A stretch of DNA of 64,000 nt from Caldilineaceae bacterium (lineage in GTDB: Bacteria; Chloroflexota; Anaerolineae; Caldilineales; Caldilineaceae), in assembly GCA_022823185.1 (NCBI GenBank), contig JAJDXQ010000046.1, forward strand, positions 186,001 to 250,000, given 5' to 3'. The notes beneath the pieces were generated by a model that was given only the letters and a program-made list of their open reading frames with translations, did not search any database and was not told where the DNA came from. The position numbers and the translations under genes were made by a program. This document shows, piece by piece, positions 10,442 through 17,128 of this stretch. Numbering within the stretch: position 1 is the stretch's first letter; every line of letters begins with the position of its first letter.

Positions 10442-10465
10442 TTTTTATGAATTTATTCATAAAAA
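10442..10465. promoter_or_regulatory. Perfect 11-2-11 palindromic operator
   Basis: Two perfectly complementary 11-bp arms (TTTTTATGAAT and ATTCATAAAAA) around a TT centre. It lies 3 bp upstream of the -35 hexamer of the regulator gene. The position suits binding of a dimeric winged-helix protein, most simply the SufR-like regulator encoded just downstream. The T/A runs could also act as an UP element. Confidence 0.7.
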
Positions 10466-10468
10466 TGT

Positions 10469-10497
10469 TTGACACGGGGACCGATTCTTGCTACTAT
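10469..10497 (+). promoter_or_regulatory. Sigma70-type promoter of the SufR-like gene
   Basis: Consensus -35 TTGACA (10469-10474), 17-bp spacer and -10 TACTAT (10492-10497). Predicted transcription start is about 30 nt before the GTG start codon. Confidence 0.8.
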
Positions 10498-10536
10498 AGG
10501 AGTATACGTGCCAGCATTTAGCGAGGGAACGTTAAG

Positions 10537-11196
10537 GTGCAGACTGTTCGCAGCCGGATTCTGGATATCTTGAAGCAAAGTGGCCAGGCCTCGGTCGGCG
10601 CGCTGGCTGAACGTCTTGACCTGGCGCCGATCTCGGTAAGGTATCATCTGGACATCCTGCTCTCAGACAATCTCATCACAGTTTCCCAGGCCGAGGGACG
10701 GCGGCGAGTCGGACGGCCGCAGAAACTCTATTCGCTGACAGAGAACGCGGAGTCCCATTTTCCCGACAATTTCGCTCTTCTTACCGCTGGCGTCGTTCGC
10801 CAGATGAAACAGATGCTCCCGCCAGAGAAGATAGAAGGCTGCTTTCGCACACTTGCGGAAGAAATGGCGCAGCCGGTCACGCTGCAAAGTTCGTCGGATG
10901 AGGAGTTGGATGAGCGTATGGGGAAGGTGGTCGCATTCCTCAATGAAAGGGGATATCTGGCGCAGTGGGAACCGGCAAGCGGCACCCTGCGCACGCACAA
11001 CTGCCCCTATACCGGTGTGGCCGCCGAGCACAAAGAGATCTGTTGCATGGACCTCGCGCTGGTGGAATCGTTGAGCGGACAGAGTTGTGAATGTGTGCAG
11101 GCCATTGCCGACGGCGCCACCTGCTGCAGCTTTCGCGTGCAGACAGATGTAGACGGGCACGTAGCAGGCACACAGAGGGTTGAACTTTCAGTCTAG
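10537..11196 (+). CDS. SufR-like winged-helix transcriptional regulator with Cys-rich C-terminus
   Basis: 219 residues. Residues 1-70 form a DeoR/ArsR-type winged helix-turn-helix (SVGALAERLDLAPISVRYHLDIL). The C-terminal part carries cysteines spaced C-x12-C and then x13-C before a final CC pair (HNCPYTG, EICC, SCEC, ATCC). This is close to the cluster-binding pattern of the SufR family, which represses Fe-S assembly genes when holding a cluster. The GTG start has GAGGG about 14 nt upstream. It is followed at once by moaA and then an A-type Fe-S carrier, in line with Fe-S-responsive control of the run. The exact cysteine spacing differs from cyanobacterial SufR, so the cofactor is inferred. 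Confidence 0.8.
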   Translation: MQTVRSRILDILKQSGQASVGALAERLDLAPISVRYHLDILLSDNLITVSQAEGRRRVGRPQKLYSLTENAESHFPDNFALLTAGVVRQMKQMLPPEKIEGCFRTLAEEMAQPVTLQSSSDEELDERMGKVVAFLNERGYLAQWEPASGTLRTHNCPYTGVAAEHKEICCMDLALVESLSGQSCECVQAIADGATCCSFRVQTDVDGHVAGTQRVELSV

Positions 11197-11230
11197 AAGC
11201 ATCAGCGTTCCTTCATTGGAATTGGAAGAT

Positions 11231-12361
11231 ATGCCAACGACAACGCGTAACCTGAATCTGCCGGAACTGCCGCTCGTCGAAGAGGCCGCGGCCAAGCAGA
11301 ATGGGCAGAGCCACCGGACGAAATATGGCAGTGTAACCTTGTCGCCCATGCCTGGCGCCGATGCCTTGGCCGCAATGACCGAACCGACCCATGACAGCTA
11401 TGGCCGCCGTGTCCGCTACCTGCGAATCAGCCTCACCGACGCCTGCAATCTGCGTTGCGTTTACTGTATGCCGGAACATATGCAGTTCCGACCGCGTCAT
11501 GAACTGATGTCAGATGAGGAAATCATCTATCTTGTCAAAGTCGCGGCCAGTTTGGGGGTAGACAAGATTCGCCTTACCGGCGGCGAACCGACCATCCGCC
11601 CCGGTGTCGTGGACCTTGTGCGCCGGATAAACACTGTTCCCGGTATCAAAGATGTCGCAATGACGACAAACGCATTGCTCTTGGATAAACTCGCCCAGCC
11701 GCTGGCCCATGCAGGTCTGAACCGGGTCAACATCAGCATCGATACGGTTGACCCAGAGCGATTTCGCCGTATCACGCGCTGGGGCGACGTTGACGACGTT
11801 TGGCGAGGCATCCAGGCAGCCGAGCGAGCCGGACTGCGGCCCGTCAAGCTAAACTGTGTCGTCACTCGCGGCTTCAACGAGGAGGATGTGATCGACCTGG
11901 CGCGCCTGACCTTGGAGAATGAATGGGAAGTTCGCTTCATCGAGATGATGCCTTTTGGCGAGGTCAGCGACTTTCAGTTGAGCAACGTCGTCTCATTCCG
12001 CGAGATTCGGGAGAAGGTCGAGTCGGTCTTTGGCCCGCTGGAGGAAGCCAGCTACGACTTTATTGATCCCAGCCGCCCCTTCCGGATCCCCGGTGCGACG
12101 GGCACCTTGGGCTTTATCAGCAGTGTGACCGAGCCTTTCTGCCAGGGCTGCGGCCGCGTGCGGTTGACGGCGGACGGCAAACTGCGTCTATGTCTGTTGC
12201 GGGATGACGAGGTCGACCTGCTGACGCCTTTGCGCGCGGGGGCCGGTTTCGATAAGATACGTGCGCTGATGCAGGAGGGCGCCTTCCACAAGCCGTGGGG
12301 ACACGGGCTGGCGTCAGGGGTCTTCGCCGACGATCGGGCGATGAACCAGATCGGCGGCTAA
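11231..12361 (+). CDS. moaA: GTP 3',8-cyclase MoaA
   Basis: 376 residues. The radical SAM cluster motif is C72-x3-C76-x2-C79 in DACNLRCVYCMP. A second 4Fe-4S site typical of MoaA follows near the C-terminus (FCQGCGRVRLTADG ... LCLL), and the GGEPTIRPG SAM motif is present. It converts GTP to 3',8-cH2GTP, the first step of molybdenum cofactor synthesis. I chose ATG 11231 (GGAAG upstream); a TTG at 11180 in frame would overlap the regulator gene. About 50 residues precede the conserved core, more than usual. The C-terminus lacks a visible GG tail just at the end but has QIGG. No other Moco genes are adjacent. Confidence 0.93.
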   Translation: MPTTTRNLNLPELPLVEEAAAKQNGQSHRTKYGSVTLSPMPGADALAAMTEPTHDSYGRRVRYLRISLTDACNLRCVYCMPEHMQFRPRHELMSDEEIIYLVKVAASLGVDKIRLTGGEPTIRPGVVDLVRRINTVPGIKDVAMTTNALLLDKLAQPLAHAGLNRVNISIDTVDPERFRRITRWGDVDDVWRGIQAAERAGLRPVKLNCVVTRGFNEEDVIDLARLTLENEWEVRFIEMMPFGEVSDFQLSNVVSFREIREKVESVFGPLEEASYDFIDPSRPFRIPGATGTLGFISSVTEPFCQGCGRVRLTADGKLRLCLLRDDEVDLLTPLRAGAGFDKIRALMQEGAFHKPWGHGLASGVFADDRAMNQIGG

Positions 12362-12576
12362 GGCTTCGGCGGCGAAGGAAGCGGTGGCGGCCGCCCGTCG
12401 GAGCGATAGACGGCGCAGTTGGCGGATCCGGGGCATCAGCGAGGGGGCGTCGCGCTTAACCATGTGCAATTTTGGAATCATCCTGTGATAGGTTAGAGAA
12501 GGAAGAACGCCAACTGGCGTCGCTAAATTGACAAACAAGCCAGGTCGGAAACATTTTTTCACTCAAGGAGAGTTCG
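12362..12576. other. Intergenic leader before the A-type carrier
   Basis: 215 bp with no gene. A TTGACA (12528-12533) is present, but its 17-bp partner ACATTT is a poor -10. A separate promoter here is possible, not established. Confidence 0.35.
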
Positions 12577-12993
12577 ATGGACATTACCCTCACCGACACA
12601 AGCACGAAGGTCGTAACACTGACTGAGATGGCTGCCGATAAGCTGGGCGGCATTCTGGATCAGAAGGGCCTGCGCGAGTCACACGCGTTGCGCGTTTTTG
12701 TGAAGGGCGGCGGCTGTGGAGGGATGCAGTACGGCATGACCTTTGACGACGACATCCAGGAGTCGGACCAGGTCTTCGAGCAGTTTGGGCTGCGCGTCGT
12801 GATTGATCCGACCAGCTTCCTCTACGTTGGCGGTTCCAGCATTGACTATATCGATAACCTGATGGGCGGGGGATTCCATATTGAGAATCCGAACGCTGTC
12901 AGCTCGTGCGGCTGCGGGAGCAGCTTCCGGACCAATGGCGCGCCGGCAGGCGCCGCCGCGGGCGCCGGTTGCGGCAGCGGCTGCGGACACTAG
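12577..12993 (+). CDS. A-type iron-sulfur carrier protein (IscA/SufA/ErpA family)
   Basis: 138 residues. It has the three cluster-ligand cysteines of HesB/IscA proteins: C47 in GGGCGGMQY and C111/C113 in SSCGCGSSF. It carries 4Fe-4S or 2Fe-2S clusters to apoproteins. ATG has AAGGAGAG upstream. The C-terminus is extended by about 20 residues, Ala/Gly-rich and with two further cysteines (GCGSGCGH), which is unusual for the family. Its place after a SufR-like regulator and MoaA, and before a radical SAM protein, suggests it matures cluster enzymes encoded beside it. Confidence 0.92.
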   Translation: MDITLTDTSTKVVTLTEMAADKLGGILDQKGLRESHALRVFVKGGGCGGMQYGMTFDDDIQESDQVFEQFGLRVVIDPTSFLYVGGSSIDYIDNLMGGGFHIENPNAVSSCGCGSSFRTNGAPAGAAAGAGCGSGCGH

Positions 12994-13112
12994 TCGCTGG
13001 CTGAAGAATTCGAACGCATAGCGGTAAGGGTTGGGTTTACAGCTCTCCAGTCGCCCGTCGTATGCGCGGGCGGCTGGTTTGCAGACCCTTGACTTGCCTG
13101 GAGCGGAGTGCC

Positions 13113-13505
13113 ATGCAGGCACGTTACTACACCTTACGGGAGGCGAAGGCCGCGCTCCCCATTGTAAAAGCGCTGATGTCCCAGGTGCAGGAGGCGCGCA
13201 GCGAAATCCTGCGCTTACGGCCTGAAATCTGGCCTGTATTGCAGAAGGCGGCCCAAAATGGGGGCAACGCCGCAGCCGGCGAAGTCTATACCCAATTCGA
13301 TAAACTGGAGTCCGGCGTCAAGGGAATTCTGGAAATGGGGATCCTGGTGAAGGACATTGATCAGGGCCTGATTGATTTTCTGGCGATTCGCAACGGGCGG
13401 GAAGTATATCTTTGCTGGAAACATGGTGAAGAGGAGCTTTCTTTTTGGCACGATGTTCACGCCGGGTTCGGAGGCCGCCAACCAATTGATCCCGCCGACT
13501 TTTGA
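13113..13505 (+). CDS. DUF2203 family protein
   Basis: 130 residues starting at ATG 13113. The opening ARYYTLREAKAALPIVKALM is the conserved N-terminus of DUF2203 (COG4911) and the C-terminus has the family's LCWKHGEEELSFWHD...GGRQP pattern. The middle is amphipathic and probably helical. The family has no known function. Same strand and close spacing to the A-type carrier upstream and the rhodanese downstream suggest co-expression. Confidence 0.85.
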   Translation: MQARYYTLREAKAALPIVKALMSQVQEARSEILRLRPEIWPVLQKAAQNGGNAAAGEVYTQFDKLESGVKGILEMGILVKDIDQGLIDFLAIRNGREVYLCWKHGEEELSFWHDVHAGFGGRQPIDPADF

Positions 13506-13590
13506 TTGCCGCCAGATTATAACCGCTCCTCAGGATCACGGTTCCCCATCTTCAATCGAAATCCGTAACAAGAAACTGTGAGTAGAGACG

Positions 13591-13962
13591 ATGCCCAATC
13601 CCTATGGCGCGCCTGAAGTTAGTGTACATGATGTCGCAGAAAAGCAGCGGGAAGGCGAGGATTTTCTGCTGGTGGATGTGCGCGAACCCAATGAGTTGGA
13701 GCTGGCCAGCCTGTCGGACGGCGCGTACATCAGCCTGCCCTTGAGTGAATTGCGCGAGCGCCGGCTGGAGGCCCTGCCGGAGGCGCTAAGCAAGGATAAG
13801 CAGGCCGAGGTTGTCCTGTTCTGCCATAAAGGACTGCGCAGCGCGCAGGTTACTGTGTTCTTGCGCCAGCAGGGCTGGTCCAACGCCGTCAGCATGGCCG
13901 GAGGCATCGATGCCTGGGCCGAAGAGATCGACGAATCGGTCGGCCAGTACGCAAGCATGTAG
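13591..13962 (+). CDS. Single-domain rhodanese-like sulfurtransferase
   Basis: 123 residues, one rhodanese domain of the GlpE/PspE size. The persulfide-forming active-site loop is CHKGLRS with C78, and LLVDVREPNE is the CH2A-type motif near residue 27. The protein would carry sulfane sulfur to a thiol acceptor or another enzyme. It lies 41 bp upstream of the B12-binding radical SAM gene, which suggests sulfur donation to that pathway or to Fe-S assembly. The acceptor is not evident. Confidence 0.92.
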   Translation: MPNPYGAPEVSVHDVAEKQREGEDFLLVDVREPNELELASLSDGAYISLPLSELRERRLEALPEALSKDKQAEVVLFCHKGLRSAQVTVFLRQQGWSNAVSMAGGIDAWAEEIDESVGQYASM

Positions 13963-14003
13963 AGTGTTGACCGCGCGTTCTGAGGAGGAATGAGGAGAAA
14001 CAG

Positions 14004-15461
14004 TTGAAATCGATCTGGCCCCCGAGCAAAGAACAGAAGAATGACATTGTCTGGATCGATCTGGGCGATTTGGGTGACCTGGTCTATCCACAGGGGCCCC
14101 ACGAGCAGTGGCAGGATCACGGGCTTGGGCTTCTGCGGACGATCATGCACAACAACGGCATCGAAACCGACATCGTGTCCACGCGGGCGGTGACCAGCTG
14201 GGAACAACTGGCGCCAAAGCTGCGGGGTTACAAGATGGCGTTGATGAATGTACGCAGCTACACATTCCCGGTCGCGTTGAAGGCTGCCCAGATTTTCAAG
14301 GAGATCAATCCGGATGGACTGGTTCTGACCGGCGGAATGCATGCAACGGTTGCGCCGGACGAGATGGCCGAAGTTGAAGCATTTGACAAGATCTGCCAGG
14401 GAGCCGGAGAGGAAGTGATCCTCGACCTGGTGCGAGATCCCGACAGTTTTTCAAGAGTATTCATGGGGCAGGGCTCCCGCTCGATGGCCGATTGGCCGCA
14501 GATCAACCGCGAACTTTGGCCCAAACCGGCCAGTTGGAAGGAAGCGCTGGCGATTGGGCGACCGCGGCGGGCAGTTCGGGTGAGCAGGCTGGAGCGGAAT
14601 TTCAACTGGCCGATGGAACCGGAGTGCGGATGGGGCCCCCCGCCTGTTGCTACGATTATCACGAGCCGCGTCTGCCCGTGGCAATGCGTGTTCTGCAACG
14701 AGGCCTCCTACATTCCCAACATGGGCCGTCGTCCGGTGGGCATGATCATCGACGAGTTGAACGCGCTCGATGAGAAGTACGGTGTGGGCTCCGTTGTAAT
14801 CCATGACTCAATGTTTTTCCAGAACCCGAAATGGCTGCAGGAATGGATACAGGAGTATCCTCGCCGGGCCAACCAGGTGTGGCCCTACTGGGCGGCCGCC
14901 CGCGCAGACACGGTTCGCCAGTGGCCCGAGCTGTTCACCGCGCTCGTGCGGGAGACCAACTGGAACCTCATTTCCATCGGCTTCGAGTCTGGCAGCGACC
15001 GCATCTTGAAGCTGCTCAACAAGGAATGCACCGAAGAGGACAACGACTACGCTATCGATCTCGTCAACCGCCTTGGCGACGAGATGGAAGCGGAAGGAAA
15101 GGAGCCTCCTGTCTTCTGGTCCAACATTATGCTGGGCATCCCAGGGGAAACGGATGAAGACGCCTTCAAGACGATGCGCATGCTCAAGCGGATGAAGCGG
15201 GTCTTCCCCTCCATCTCCTACTACGCGCCGTATCCGGGCTCAGCCCTGGGCTTTCAACTGATCGCCGAAGGCAAAAGCCTGATGAGCCGGGACAACTATC
15301 ACCGCTTCCCCGATGACGAGAAAGTGAAGGGTGTCGACTACGGATTCTACCGGGAGCTGCTTGCAGGCAAATATGACGCTGAAGTGAATCGCGGCCTGAC
15401 AGAAGCTGAACAGCGGCGCGGCTATGAAGGCATGTACCAGCAGGCCCTGGTAAAGGCATAG
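14004..15461 (+). CDS. B12-binding domain radical SAM protein of unknown function
   Basis: 485 residues. The N-terminal half resembles a cobalamin-binding Rossmann domain (VLTGGMHATVAPDE near residue 107, CQGAGEE near 131) but lacks the classic DxHxxG. The radical SAM motif C224-x3-C228-x2-C231 (RVCPWQCVFCNE) and a GFESGSD motif near residue 325 follow. TTG at 14004 is the start, with GAGGAG about 6 nt upstream. Homologous architectures do methylations, ring contractions and thiolations; the product here cannot be told. It is followed 4 nt later by a 68-residue and then an overlapping 126-residue unknown gene, which are likely partners. Confidence 0.85.
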   Translation: MKSIWPPSKEQKNDIVWIDLGDLGDLVYPQGPHEQWQDHGLGLLRTIMHNNGIETDIVSTRAVTSWEQLAPKLRGYKMALMNVRSYTFPVALKAAQIFKEINPDGLVLTGGMHATVAPDEMAEVEAFDKICQGAGEEVILDLVRDPDSFSRVFMGQGSRSMADWPQINRELWPKPASWKEALAIGRPRRAVRVSRLERNFNWPMEPECGWGPPPVATIITSRVCPWQCVFCNEASYIPNMGRRPVGMIIDELNALDEKYGVGSVVIHDSMFFQNPKWLQEWIQEYPRRANQVWPYWAAARADTVRQWPELFTALVRETNWNLISIGFESGSDRILKLLNKECTEEDNDYAIDLVNRLGDEMEAEGKEPPVFWSNIMLGIPGETDEDAFKTMRMLKRMKRVFPSISYYAPYPGSALGFQLIAEGKSLMSRDNYHRFPDDEKVKGVDYGFYRELLAGKYDAEVNRGLTEAEQRRGYEGMYQQALVKA

Positions 15462-15465
15462 GCGG

Positions 15466-15672
15466 ATGAGCAGCTTTTCCAATCCCCACTACATGTACCT
15501 GTTTGACATGAAGAACGGCAAGAAAAAGCTTGCCTACGGACAGAGCCCGGAGGACGCGCTGGAGATTCTGCGTATTCGCCTTTCAGACGAGGAGATGGGC
15601 CAGATAGAAGCCGACCAATACGTGCGCATCAGCCAGCGAAAGCTCCAAGAGCACGTTGACGATCTGGGATGA
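15466..15672 (+). CDS. Small conserved-looking hypothetical protein (68 aa)
   Basis: Starts 4 nt after the radical SAM gene and overlaps the next gene by 4 nt (ATGA), so it is likely translated as part of an operon. The sequence (MYLFDMKNGKKKLAYGQSPEDALEILR) is soluble and charged, with no cysteine or signal. I do not recognise a family. The tight coupling suggests a partner or regulatory subunit for the radical SAM protein. Confidence 0.6.
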   Translation: MSSFSNPHYMYLFDMKNGKKKLAYGQSPEDALEILRIRLSDEEMGQIEADQYVRISQRKLQEHVDDLG

Positions 15673-16049
15673 TGCTGCGCGCAGCGGCCGCGAGATTGGG
15701 CGCGCGCCTGCGCGCCGCGTTTGGCCGCTCTGCGAACATACCCCCGCACTCTACCCTGACCCCCTCCCAGCAGCGACTCCTTGGAGAGCTGCTGCAGGGT
15801 GATACCCTCAAATCCCATCGTTACCTCGACGGCAACAAGGAATACCGTCTGCATCCACTTGGCGGCGACTCCCGTTCTGTTGCGGCGCAAGACGTGAAGC
15901 GATTGGAAGTTTATGGGCTTCTGCTCAGCAACCACAAATTTCCCGCGGCCACGCTATTCCTGTCACCGAGCGGGCGAGAGGCCGCCGCTGCGGCTGTAAA
16001 GGCAGTCAGAGAGGCCCGGGAGGACTCTGCCTTCAAGAAGTCTCGGTAG
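15669..16049 (+). CDS. Hypothetical protein (126 aa)
   Basis: Overlaps the 68-residue gene by 4 nt, a coupling signature. The first 20 residues are Arg/Ala-rich (MMLRAAAARLGARLRAAFG), amphipathic rather than a clear membrane segment. The rest contains YLDGNKEYRLHPLGGD and a helical Ala-rich end, and could form a small winged-helix-like fold (LEVYGLLLSN). No family recognised. Convergent with the DUF309 gene after 64 bp. Confidence 0.55.
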   Translation: MMLRAAAARLGARLRAAFGRSANIPPHSTLTPSQQRLLGELLQGDTLKSHRYLDGNKEYRLHPLGGDSRSVAAQDVKRLEVYGLLLSNHKFPAATLFLSPSGREAAAAAVKAVREAREDSAFKKSR

Positions 16050-16113: not shown

Positions 16114-16944
16114 CTAATGTTCCTCTGGCAACTGAACGCCCAGGTCCTCGGGTGTTTCGCCACCGTAGGGATTGCTGAAATCCAACCTGGGAAAGTTCAT
16201 ATCACTGGCGTCAACGGGAAGGTCGGGGTCCATCTCGGAAATCTGGCGATGGATCTTCTCGGAGGCCGCACGGAAGGGTCCCACTCCGATCCCCTGACAC
16301 TGGTCAGCCAATCCCCGAAGTTTTGGCAGGCCGCGGCGAAACATCTTCAGCGCGCCTCGCCGGTTTCCCCTTTCAATCTGAAGAAACGCGACGCCGACCT
16401 GCAGGATGCCCTGGTAAATATCGCGTACCGGCCGCGATTCTTCGTTCCAGGCCAGTTCCAGGTATTCGTGCTGGTCGAAGAACCGCCCTTGATTGAAAGC
16501 AAGCAGCCCGGCCACGGCCGCGCGGCTGGGCGGGTCCGCGCAACCATCAAGGACCCGGTGCGGTGGATGAATGTGTCGTTCGACCACGGCCACAAGCTCT
16601 TCCATAATGCGGCTGCGCGCCCAGGAATGGTCGGCGCCCGCCTTTCGCGCCTTCTGAAGCGTCTCCACGTCGACGTGGCTGCCAAAGGCGTAAATGGGTG
16701 TGAGGCGTGTGTGCGGTTTCAGCTTGCACTGTCTGATGGCAGACTCCCAGTCCCCGGGCGATTTCAGGTCGAGCAAGGCCAGAACGGGAAATGTGCTCGC
16801 CACCGCGCCCATAAACAACTCTGACCGGTCGATCGTGACCGGTTCGCCGCCCGCAGCCCGCACAACGTCTTCCAGTCTAACTGAGAAAAAGAGGTCCGGC
16901 TCAAGAATCACGACGACCGGTCGGTACTGTTCAGTGTCTGCCAC
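16114..16944 (-). CDS. DUF309 protein with N-terminal receiver-like domain
   Basis: 276 residues from a GTG at 16944, placed 5 nt after GGAGG; a TTG four codons earlier would sit on the Shine-Dalgarno. Residues about 8-120 look like a response-regulator receiver: VVVILEPDLFF with acidic residues after strand 1, and LALLDLKS with a possible phosphoacceptor Asp. The C-terminal half is DUF309 (FNQGRFFDQHEYLELAW, then DIYQGILQVGVAFLQIERGN), a helical family of unknown function. No histidine kinase is encoded nearby, and the switch Lys is not clear, so signalling by phosphorylation is uncertain. Confidence 0.8.
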   Translation of the reverse strand: MADTEQYRPVVVILEPDLFFSVRLEDVVRAAGGEPVTIDRSELFMGAVASTFPVLALLDLKSPGDWESAIRQCKLKPHTRLTPIYAFGSHVDVETLQKARKAGADHSWARSRIMEELVAVVERHIHPPHRVLDGCADPPSRAAVAGLLAFNQGRFFDQHEYLELAWNEESRPVRDIYQGILQVGVAFLQIERGNRRGALKMFRRGLPKLRGLADQCQGIGVGPFRAASEKIHRQISEMDPDLPVDASDMNFPRLDFSNPYGGETPEDLGVQLPEEH

Positions 16945-17128
16945 GTTGCCCTCCAATCAAGTGAAGTGCAGCTTCGCCCGCCTACCCTTAGCAAGCTGCT
17001 GCGCTTGAAAATCGCGTCGAATCTGACGGCTTATCTCCTGGTCATAAGGGTGGCTGGATGTCCCGTTGAACGGCCCCGCGAATTCATGCCGGCCCCTACC
17101 TTTCCATTGCTGAATCCACTGTCCCCTC

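Follow-up and report, generated by a model that had tools for sequence, protein, structure and literature searches.

A radical SAM enzyme and a 68-residue partner protein as a probable two-component modification system of Anaerolineae and phages

RaSEA is the radical SAM (S-adenosylmethionine) partner of ArcS. Here we describe a gene run at positions 10442-16049 of a 64,000-nucleotide stretch of DNA from a Caldilineaceae bacterium (the window, to which all coordinates without a locus label refer), in which a radical SAM enzyme is followed by the gene for a small protein, p68. Archaeosine synthase ArcS-RaSEA is a precedent for such an arrangement, being a radical SAM tRNA enzyme with a partner protein; it is archaeal and uses preQ0 chemistry, unlike the system presented here (PMC11298593). 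A second related system is the SufR-controlled suf operon, of which the window genome has its own copy and which is also known from Mycobacterium (Rv1460, PMC6034842). There, as in our run, a SufR-type regulator heads an iron-sulfur (Fe-S) operon, whereas the regulator in the window heads a radical SAM operon.

The structure model of the enzyme (predicted local distance difference test score, pLDDT, 73.8) resembles AprD4, MgmA, CysS, OxsB, TsrM and MiaB. The top structural match, the diol dehydratase AprD4 (PDB 6fd2; Z 21.1 over 384 residues), is only 12% identical to the enzyme, and its substrate is a small aminoglycoside. MgmA (TIGR04014, PDB 9ccb) likewise combines a B12-binding-like domain with a radical SAM barrel (VIA-align Z 19.7, 345 residues) and was the sole match in a sequence-profile search of the PDB (E 2.6e-4), but shares 16% identity. 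BchE and HpnJ are the best NCBIfam matches and have the same domain order, but the surroundings of our core showed no pigment or hopanoid genes. For neither MgmA nor AprD4 do we know of a p68 partner. The methylthiotransferases MiaB and RimO, whose targets are RNA or the ribosome, share the overall architecture (Z 17-18); unlike them, the enzyme has no reported match to TRAM or the MiaB N-terminal domain.

All genes of the run are located on the plus strand. The features are:

10442-10465, no strand: inverted repeat TTTTTATGAATTTATTCATAAAAA, a perfect palindrome and candidate operator of the SufR-like regulator
10469-10497, plus: sigma70-type promoter (TTGACA at 10469, TACTAT at 10492, 17-bp spacer), recognized by sequence and conserved in relatives
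10537-11196, plus: SufR-like winged-helix Fe-S regulator (TIGR02702 match)
11180-12361, plus: MoaA (GTP 3',8-cyclase; TIGR02666 above cut-off), a lineage-specific neighbour outside the core
12577-12993, plus: ErpA-like A-type Fe-S carrier with a Cys-rich tail (NF010147)
13113-13505, plus: DUF2203 protein (PF09969, E 1.2e-33)
13591-13962, plus: single-domain rhodanese (PF00581), a lineage-specific neighbour outside the core
14004-15461, plus: radical SAM enzyme (PF04055), 485 residues, with a B12-binding-like N-terminal domain and the motif C224-x3-C228-x2-C231
15466-15672, plus: p68, 68 residues, near-obligate partner of the radical SAM enzyme by co-occurrence and phage copies
15669-16049, plus: p126, a probable winged-helix protein (weak Pfam matches)

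A first-pass annotation had listed these genes together with a strong promoter and an operator, and the genes, the promoter and a palindrome are indeed present. It had also taken p68 and p126 for closely linked partners of the radical SAM protein. The p68 gene starts 4 bp after the stop codon of the enzyme and overlaps p126 by 4 bp. Our comparison covered 80 loci, some from Caldilineales and some from elsewhere in Anaerolineae, with gene order taken mostly from contigs of metagenome-assembled genomes and with relatives' genes represented by open reading frames filtered by conservation rather than called by a trained gene finder. Across these relatives the core order is (SufR-like)-ErpA-like-(DUF2203)-radical SAM-p68-p126. 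The proposed coupling is thus conserved across Anaerolineae, and the enzyme does not fall into a family of known, unrelated function, the two outcomes on which that annotation had made its proposal depend. Our literature search returned nothing on an enzyme-p68 system, and DUF2203 was mentioned only in an irrelevant context.

The pairing of enzyme and p68 was quantified in a sample of 397 Anaerolineae genomes of at least 90% completeness, in which the enzyme was accepted at E up to 1e-150 and the two lists were compared by hand. Co-occurrence is near-perfect: the enzyme is found in 117 genomes, p68 in 114 and both in 113, while no more than 118 carry at least one of the two. Four genomes have the enzyme alone (G483, G498, G525, G547), that of G498 being a truncated match, and one has p68 alone (G660), where it begins at base 1 of its contig. 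Judged from the match positions, in 101 of the 113 genomes p68 lies within ~600 bp downstream of the enzyme on the same strand; in four the two genes are split by a 2-kb insert encoding AAA_31 and HEPN proteins, and in eight they are on different contigs (five of these belong to genus g7). In G022, a member of this genus, p68 stands beside p126 and a DUF309 gene, away from the enzyme, so that both proteins are kept even when unlinked. No p68 was found outside Anaerolineae in a sample of 400 Chloroflexota.

Phages carry the pair as well. Profile scans of 2.9 million contigs of IMG/VR identified three viral contigs that encode the enzyme (loci with the radical SAM gene L153:3655-5186, L163:178-4865 and L164:4807-6753), with 55-61% identity to the bacterial enzymes. 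In both contigs not cut off at this point p68 directly follows the enzyme; the third contig ends there. The phage pair comes without DUF2203 or p126, and enzyme plus p68 are therefore the minimal unit. Contig G454 (15 kb) contains, in this order, tRNA-Trp, the enzyme, p68, tRNA-Leu, further tRNAs, IscU, IscA, ErpA and tRNA-Arg, with the three Fe-S assembly genes between tRNA-Ser and tRNA-Arg. Proximity to Fe-S assembly genes, as in the bacteria, thus recurs in one phage. On G455 (13 kb), 13 tRNAs are preceded by genes for a gp32-like protein, a UvsX-like recombinase, an RNA ligase and an RF-1-domain protein, and the enzyme begins 72 bp after the last tRNA and is truncated by the end of the contig. 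By blastn and tblastx, the enzyme gene is the sole region shared by G454 and G455. On G456 (49 kb), enzyme and p68 have genes for a portal/head-tail-adaptor protein and a terminase in their vicinity.

The enzyme was not found in annotated phage records. Searching plasmids with the phage enzyme returned, among the matches listed, only radical SAM relatives of 22-25% identity, and p68 gave no credible plasmid match. In the phage collection, the record 'Acinetobacter phage MD-2021a' (L180) has the whole isc operon, surrounded by housekeeping genes, and resembles bacterial chromosome.

The enzyme belongs to the radical SAM superfamily, with a PF04055 score of 52.0 bits (gathering cut-off 29.5). 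The cysteines C224, C228 and C231 are invariant in 38 orthologues and kept in the phage copies. Its assignment to the B12 type is putative and derives from the B12-binding-like domain, which is visible in the structure model and scores just under the gathering cut-off of PF02310 (30.2 bits vs 32.1). All known B12-type radical SAM families tried for the enzyme fell far under their NCBIfam cut-offs: BchE (TIGR02026) reached 66.6 of 481.35 bits, HpnJ (TIGR03471) 52.8 of 577.6 and MgmA (TIGR04014) 33.9 of 360. The MiaB/RimO model (TIGR00089) gave 23.7 bits, with a subfamily cut-off of 251. In a tree of 35 proteins, the enzyme and its phage homologues form one clade, supported at 100/100, which a long stem separates from the paralogues found in radical SAM gene arrays and from homologues of ~31% identity. 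Within the enzyme family, identity is ~70% across many Anaerolineae lineages. The enzyme is a new radical SAM subfamily and p68 a new partner family, while the chemistry is of a known type. The homologues of ~31% identity (L127-L139) were also considered as functional equivalents with a diverged p68 and were dismissed, since their loci lack p68 at E up to 1. One of them, L127, is located among nucleotide-sugar and polysaccharide genes.

The partner protein is extremely conserved. All 68 distinct p68 sequences are exactly 68 residues long and end in LG, and 20 columns are invariant, including R38, E43 and M44. The N-terminal tail (starting MSSFSNPH) is invariant in bacteria, though predicted to be flexible. 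In the AlphaFold2 model (pLDDT 84.3), p68 consists of two strands, helices, a strand and a helix. Neither p68 nor p126 has a matching family in Pfam or NCBIfam, and neither p68 nor DUF2203 gave a significant match in a sequence search of solved structures.

Based on these findings we consider it highly probable that enzyme and p68 constitute a two-component radical SAM modification system with a dedicated Fe-S supply. Beyond gene content, we infer the following mechanism. The SufR-like regulator would sense the Fe-S status and control the operon, the ErpA-like carrier with its Cys-rich tail would hand [4Fe-4S] clusters to the enzyme, and p68 and the 485-residue catalytic protein are predicted to form a complex. 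DUF2203 would serve as a bacterial accessory and p126 as a probable winged-helix accessory with a regulatory or nucleic-acid-binding role. The leading target, held tentatively and at slightly less than even chances, is RNA, with tRNA first, because in two otherwise dissimilar phage contigs the gene is located within or directly beside tRNA genes, and because G455 carries translation and RNA-repair genes. The explanation as a whole, combining the two-component enzyme, the Fe-S supply and an RNA target, is our best one and is just as tentative. Its most specific version is somewhat doubtful, namely that the two proteins, conserved in many Anaerolineae lineages, install a modification, perhaps a carbon-methyl group, on tRNA or another RNA of translation, and that tRNA-bearing phages maintain it during infection with the help of Fe-S assembly genes.

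Several observations weigh against an RNA-modifying enzyme of this kind. Confidence in the enzyme model is low at the catalytic loop. The pair was considered as a replacement for MiaB and rejected: MiaB is found with or without it, and the window genome has its own MiaB. The best structural matches of p68, ribosomal protein LX/L18a (Z 5.1-5.4) and others, lie within the background of unrelated models and were given no weight. Within the stretch of G456 that was searched there is no tRNA. The enzymes of G454 and G455 are 75% identical and sisters in the tree, which makes the two tRNA placements less than fully independent. In phage p68 the core is retained, as is the LG end, whereas the MSSFSNPH start is missing. 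Phage tRNA arrays also gather unrelated genes, and in 54 bacterial loci no tRNA gene was found near the pair, save one at a locus edge.

What the enzyme acts on might also be p68 itself, on an invariant residue of which it would place a C-methyl or other radical modification, with modified p68 as the functional product. The one-to-one pairing in bacteria and the two testable phages would fit, as would the extreme conservation of p68 (its length, R38, E43, M44 and the C-terminal LG), an N-terminal tail that is invariant in bacteria despite its predicted flexibility, and the rank of MgmA, which modifies a glutamine of methyl-coenzyme M reductase, as second-best structural match. But phage p68 does without the tail, which therefore need not be the modified site, p68 folds as a domain and lacks a leader-core layout, no single residue stands out, and the tRNA arrays are left unexplained; we therefore regard p68 as a possible but doubtful substrate. 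It is rather unlikely that the target is a small molecule or lipid, as for BchE, HpnJ and AprD4, with p68 as an accessory subunit. No pathway enzyme is consistently found with the core, the pair occurs without radical SAM arrays in distant Anaerolineae and phages, and in two phages it is located in or beside tRNA arrays. Such a target is suggested by the best NCBIfam models (BchE and HpnJ, though far under cut-off), by AprD4 as top structural match, and by other Caldilineales that carry the gene in arrays of B12-type radical SAM genes with a SPASM protein.

The run could finally be a loose set of independent Fe-S related genes, with p68 and p126 as unrelated small genes. The arrays of B12-type radical SAM genes, like MoaA and rhodanese, are indeed present at some loci and missing at others, but the joint presence of enzyme and p68 in the census, also where unlinked, the carriage of the pair by phages, and the 4-bp overlap of p68 and p126 with otherwise short gaps make this very improbable. 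An undescribed modification system remains the best reading of the run. The first-pass annotation had suggested an undescribed modification or cofactor pathway; the former agrees with our results, and the cofactor pathway gained no specific support.

The same annotation had assigned Fe-S sensing, cluster delivery and sulfur transfer to the run. The first two hold up, as roles assigned by gene identity: SufR-like and ErpA-like genes recur across the class, as does the C-terminal tail of the carriers with its extra cysteines, which is rich in Gly and Ser. The carrier of the window scores 118.9 bits with NF010147 (equivalog cut-off 117), and A-type carriers occur in 38 of 81 neighbourhoods, DUF2203 in 31 and rhodanese at 13 loci. 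The sulfur-transfer and MoaA parts are not borne out. MoaA is a standard enzyme by its model (TIGR02666, 368.1 bits vs an equivalog cut-off of 284.05), and MoaA and rhodanese accompany the core in some Caldilineaceae only. A MoaA-dependent or sulfur-transfer pathway for the core was rejected because both genes are absent at distant loci.

The SufR-like gene matches TIGR02702 with E 3.7e-18, and its 66.0 bits are under the equivalog cut-off of 178.8; we therefore call it SufR-like rather than SufR. Its C-terminal part contains Cys-x12-Cys-Cys-x13-Cys. SufR-like genes head the core in distant lineages, too (L099, L104, L110, L116, L117, L124). In most genus-level relatives the palindrome occupies the same position upstream of the SufR-like gene; it is altered in three of them (L056, L057, L058) and was not seen there in more distant relatives. 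The TTGACA-type promoter persists more widely; a pattern search of the window gave two matches vs 0.5 expected. The genome harbours one perfect palindrome and one site with a single mismatch (L157:1501-1518; G000:C27:94159), the latter without an obvious target gene. A sufCBD operon with a SufR of its own (G000:C23, L161) is encoded elsewhere in this genome and shows no copy of the palindrome at up to three mismatches. Therefore, the SufR-like gene of the window is a second, paralogous regulator.

For p126 the claim of two overlapping genes of no known family stands in part: the overlap is there and no named family matches, but p126 is, judged from its sequence, probably a winged-helix protein. 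Its core of ~80 residues (TLKSHRxLDGxKxYxLHPL...SNxKFPAATYxLT) is preceded by a genus-specific N-terminal extension. Pfam matches are weak (HTH_45 in 6 of 18 members, YjhX in 4 of 18, and HxlR), the best E values for the winged-helix families HTH_45 and YjhX being 0.007-0.02 in single members, under the gathering cut-offs. Convergent to p126, a DUF309 protein with a weakly response-regulator-like N-terminal part is encoded on the minus strand (16114-16956), an adjacency kept in the genus.

At other loci the surroundings differ. Among the divergent neighbours at L114, L116 and L124 are an IscX-like gene, Mrp and complex I (nuo) genes. A record named Litorilinea (L062) has the enzyme gene as well. 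Other Caldilineales have the enzyme within arrays of at least two further B12-type radical SAM genes and a SPASM-type one (L140:498-8090, L100, L106, L115, L120). The insert between enzyme and p68 in four genomes is a 2-kb two-gene cassette of an AAA_31/ParA-like ATPase and a RiboL-PSP-HEPN protein (L047:10512-12149, also L048 and L058) and matched no PADLOC model. A link to aerobic respiration was considered and discarded: COX1 is present in nearly all relatives with the pair (exceptions G003 and G050), but also in several without it, so that phylogeny confounds the link.

Taken together, a radical SAM family that has stayed at ~70% identity in many lineages of the class, and that almost always comes with a partner of no known family, is probably not dispensable. 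The phage copies provide both a minimal unit for reconstitution and, with RNA, a testable clue to the target. If our explanation is true, the radical enzymes that modify RNA would gain a two-component member, together with an example of a phage in which such an enzyme is accompanied by Fe-S assembly genes.

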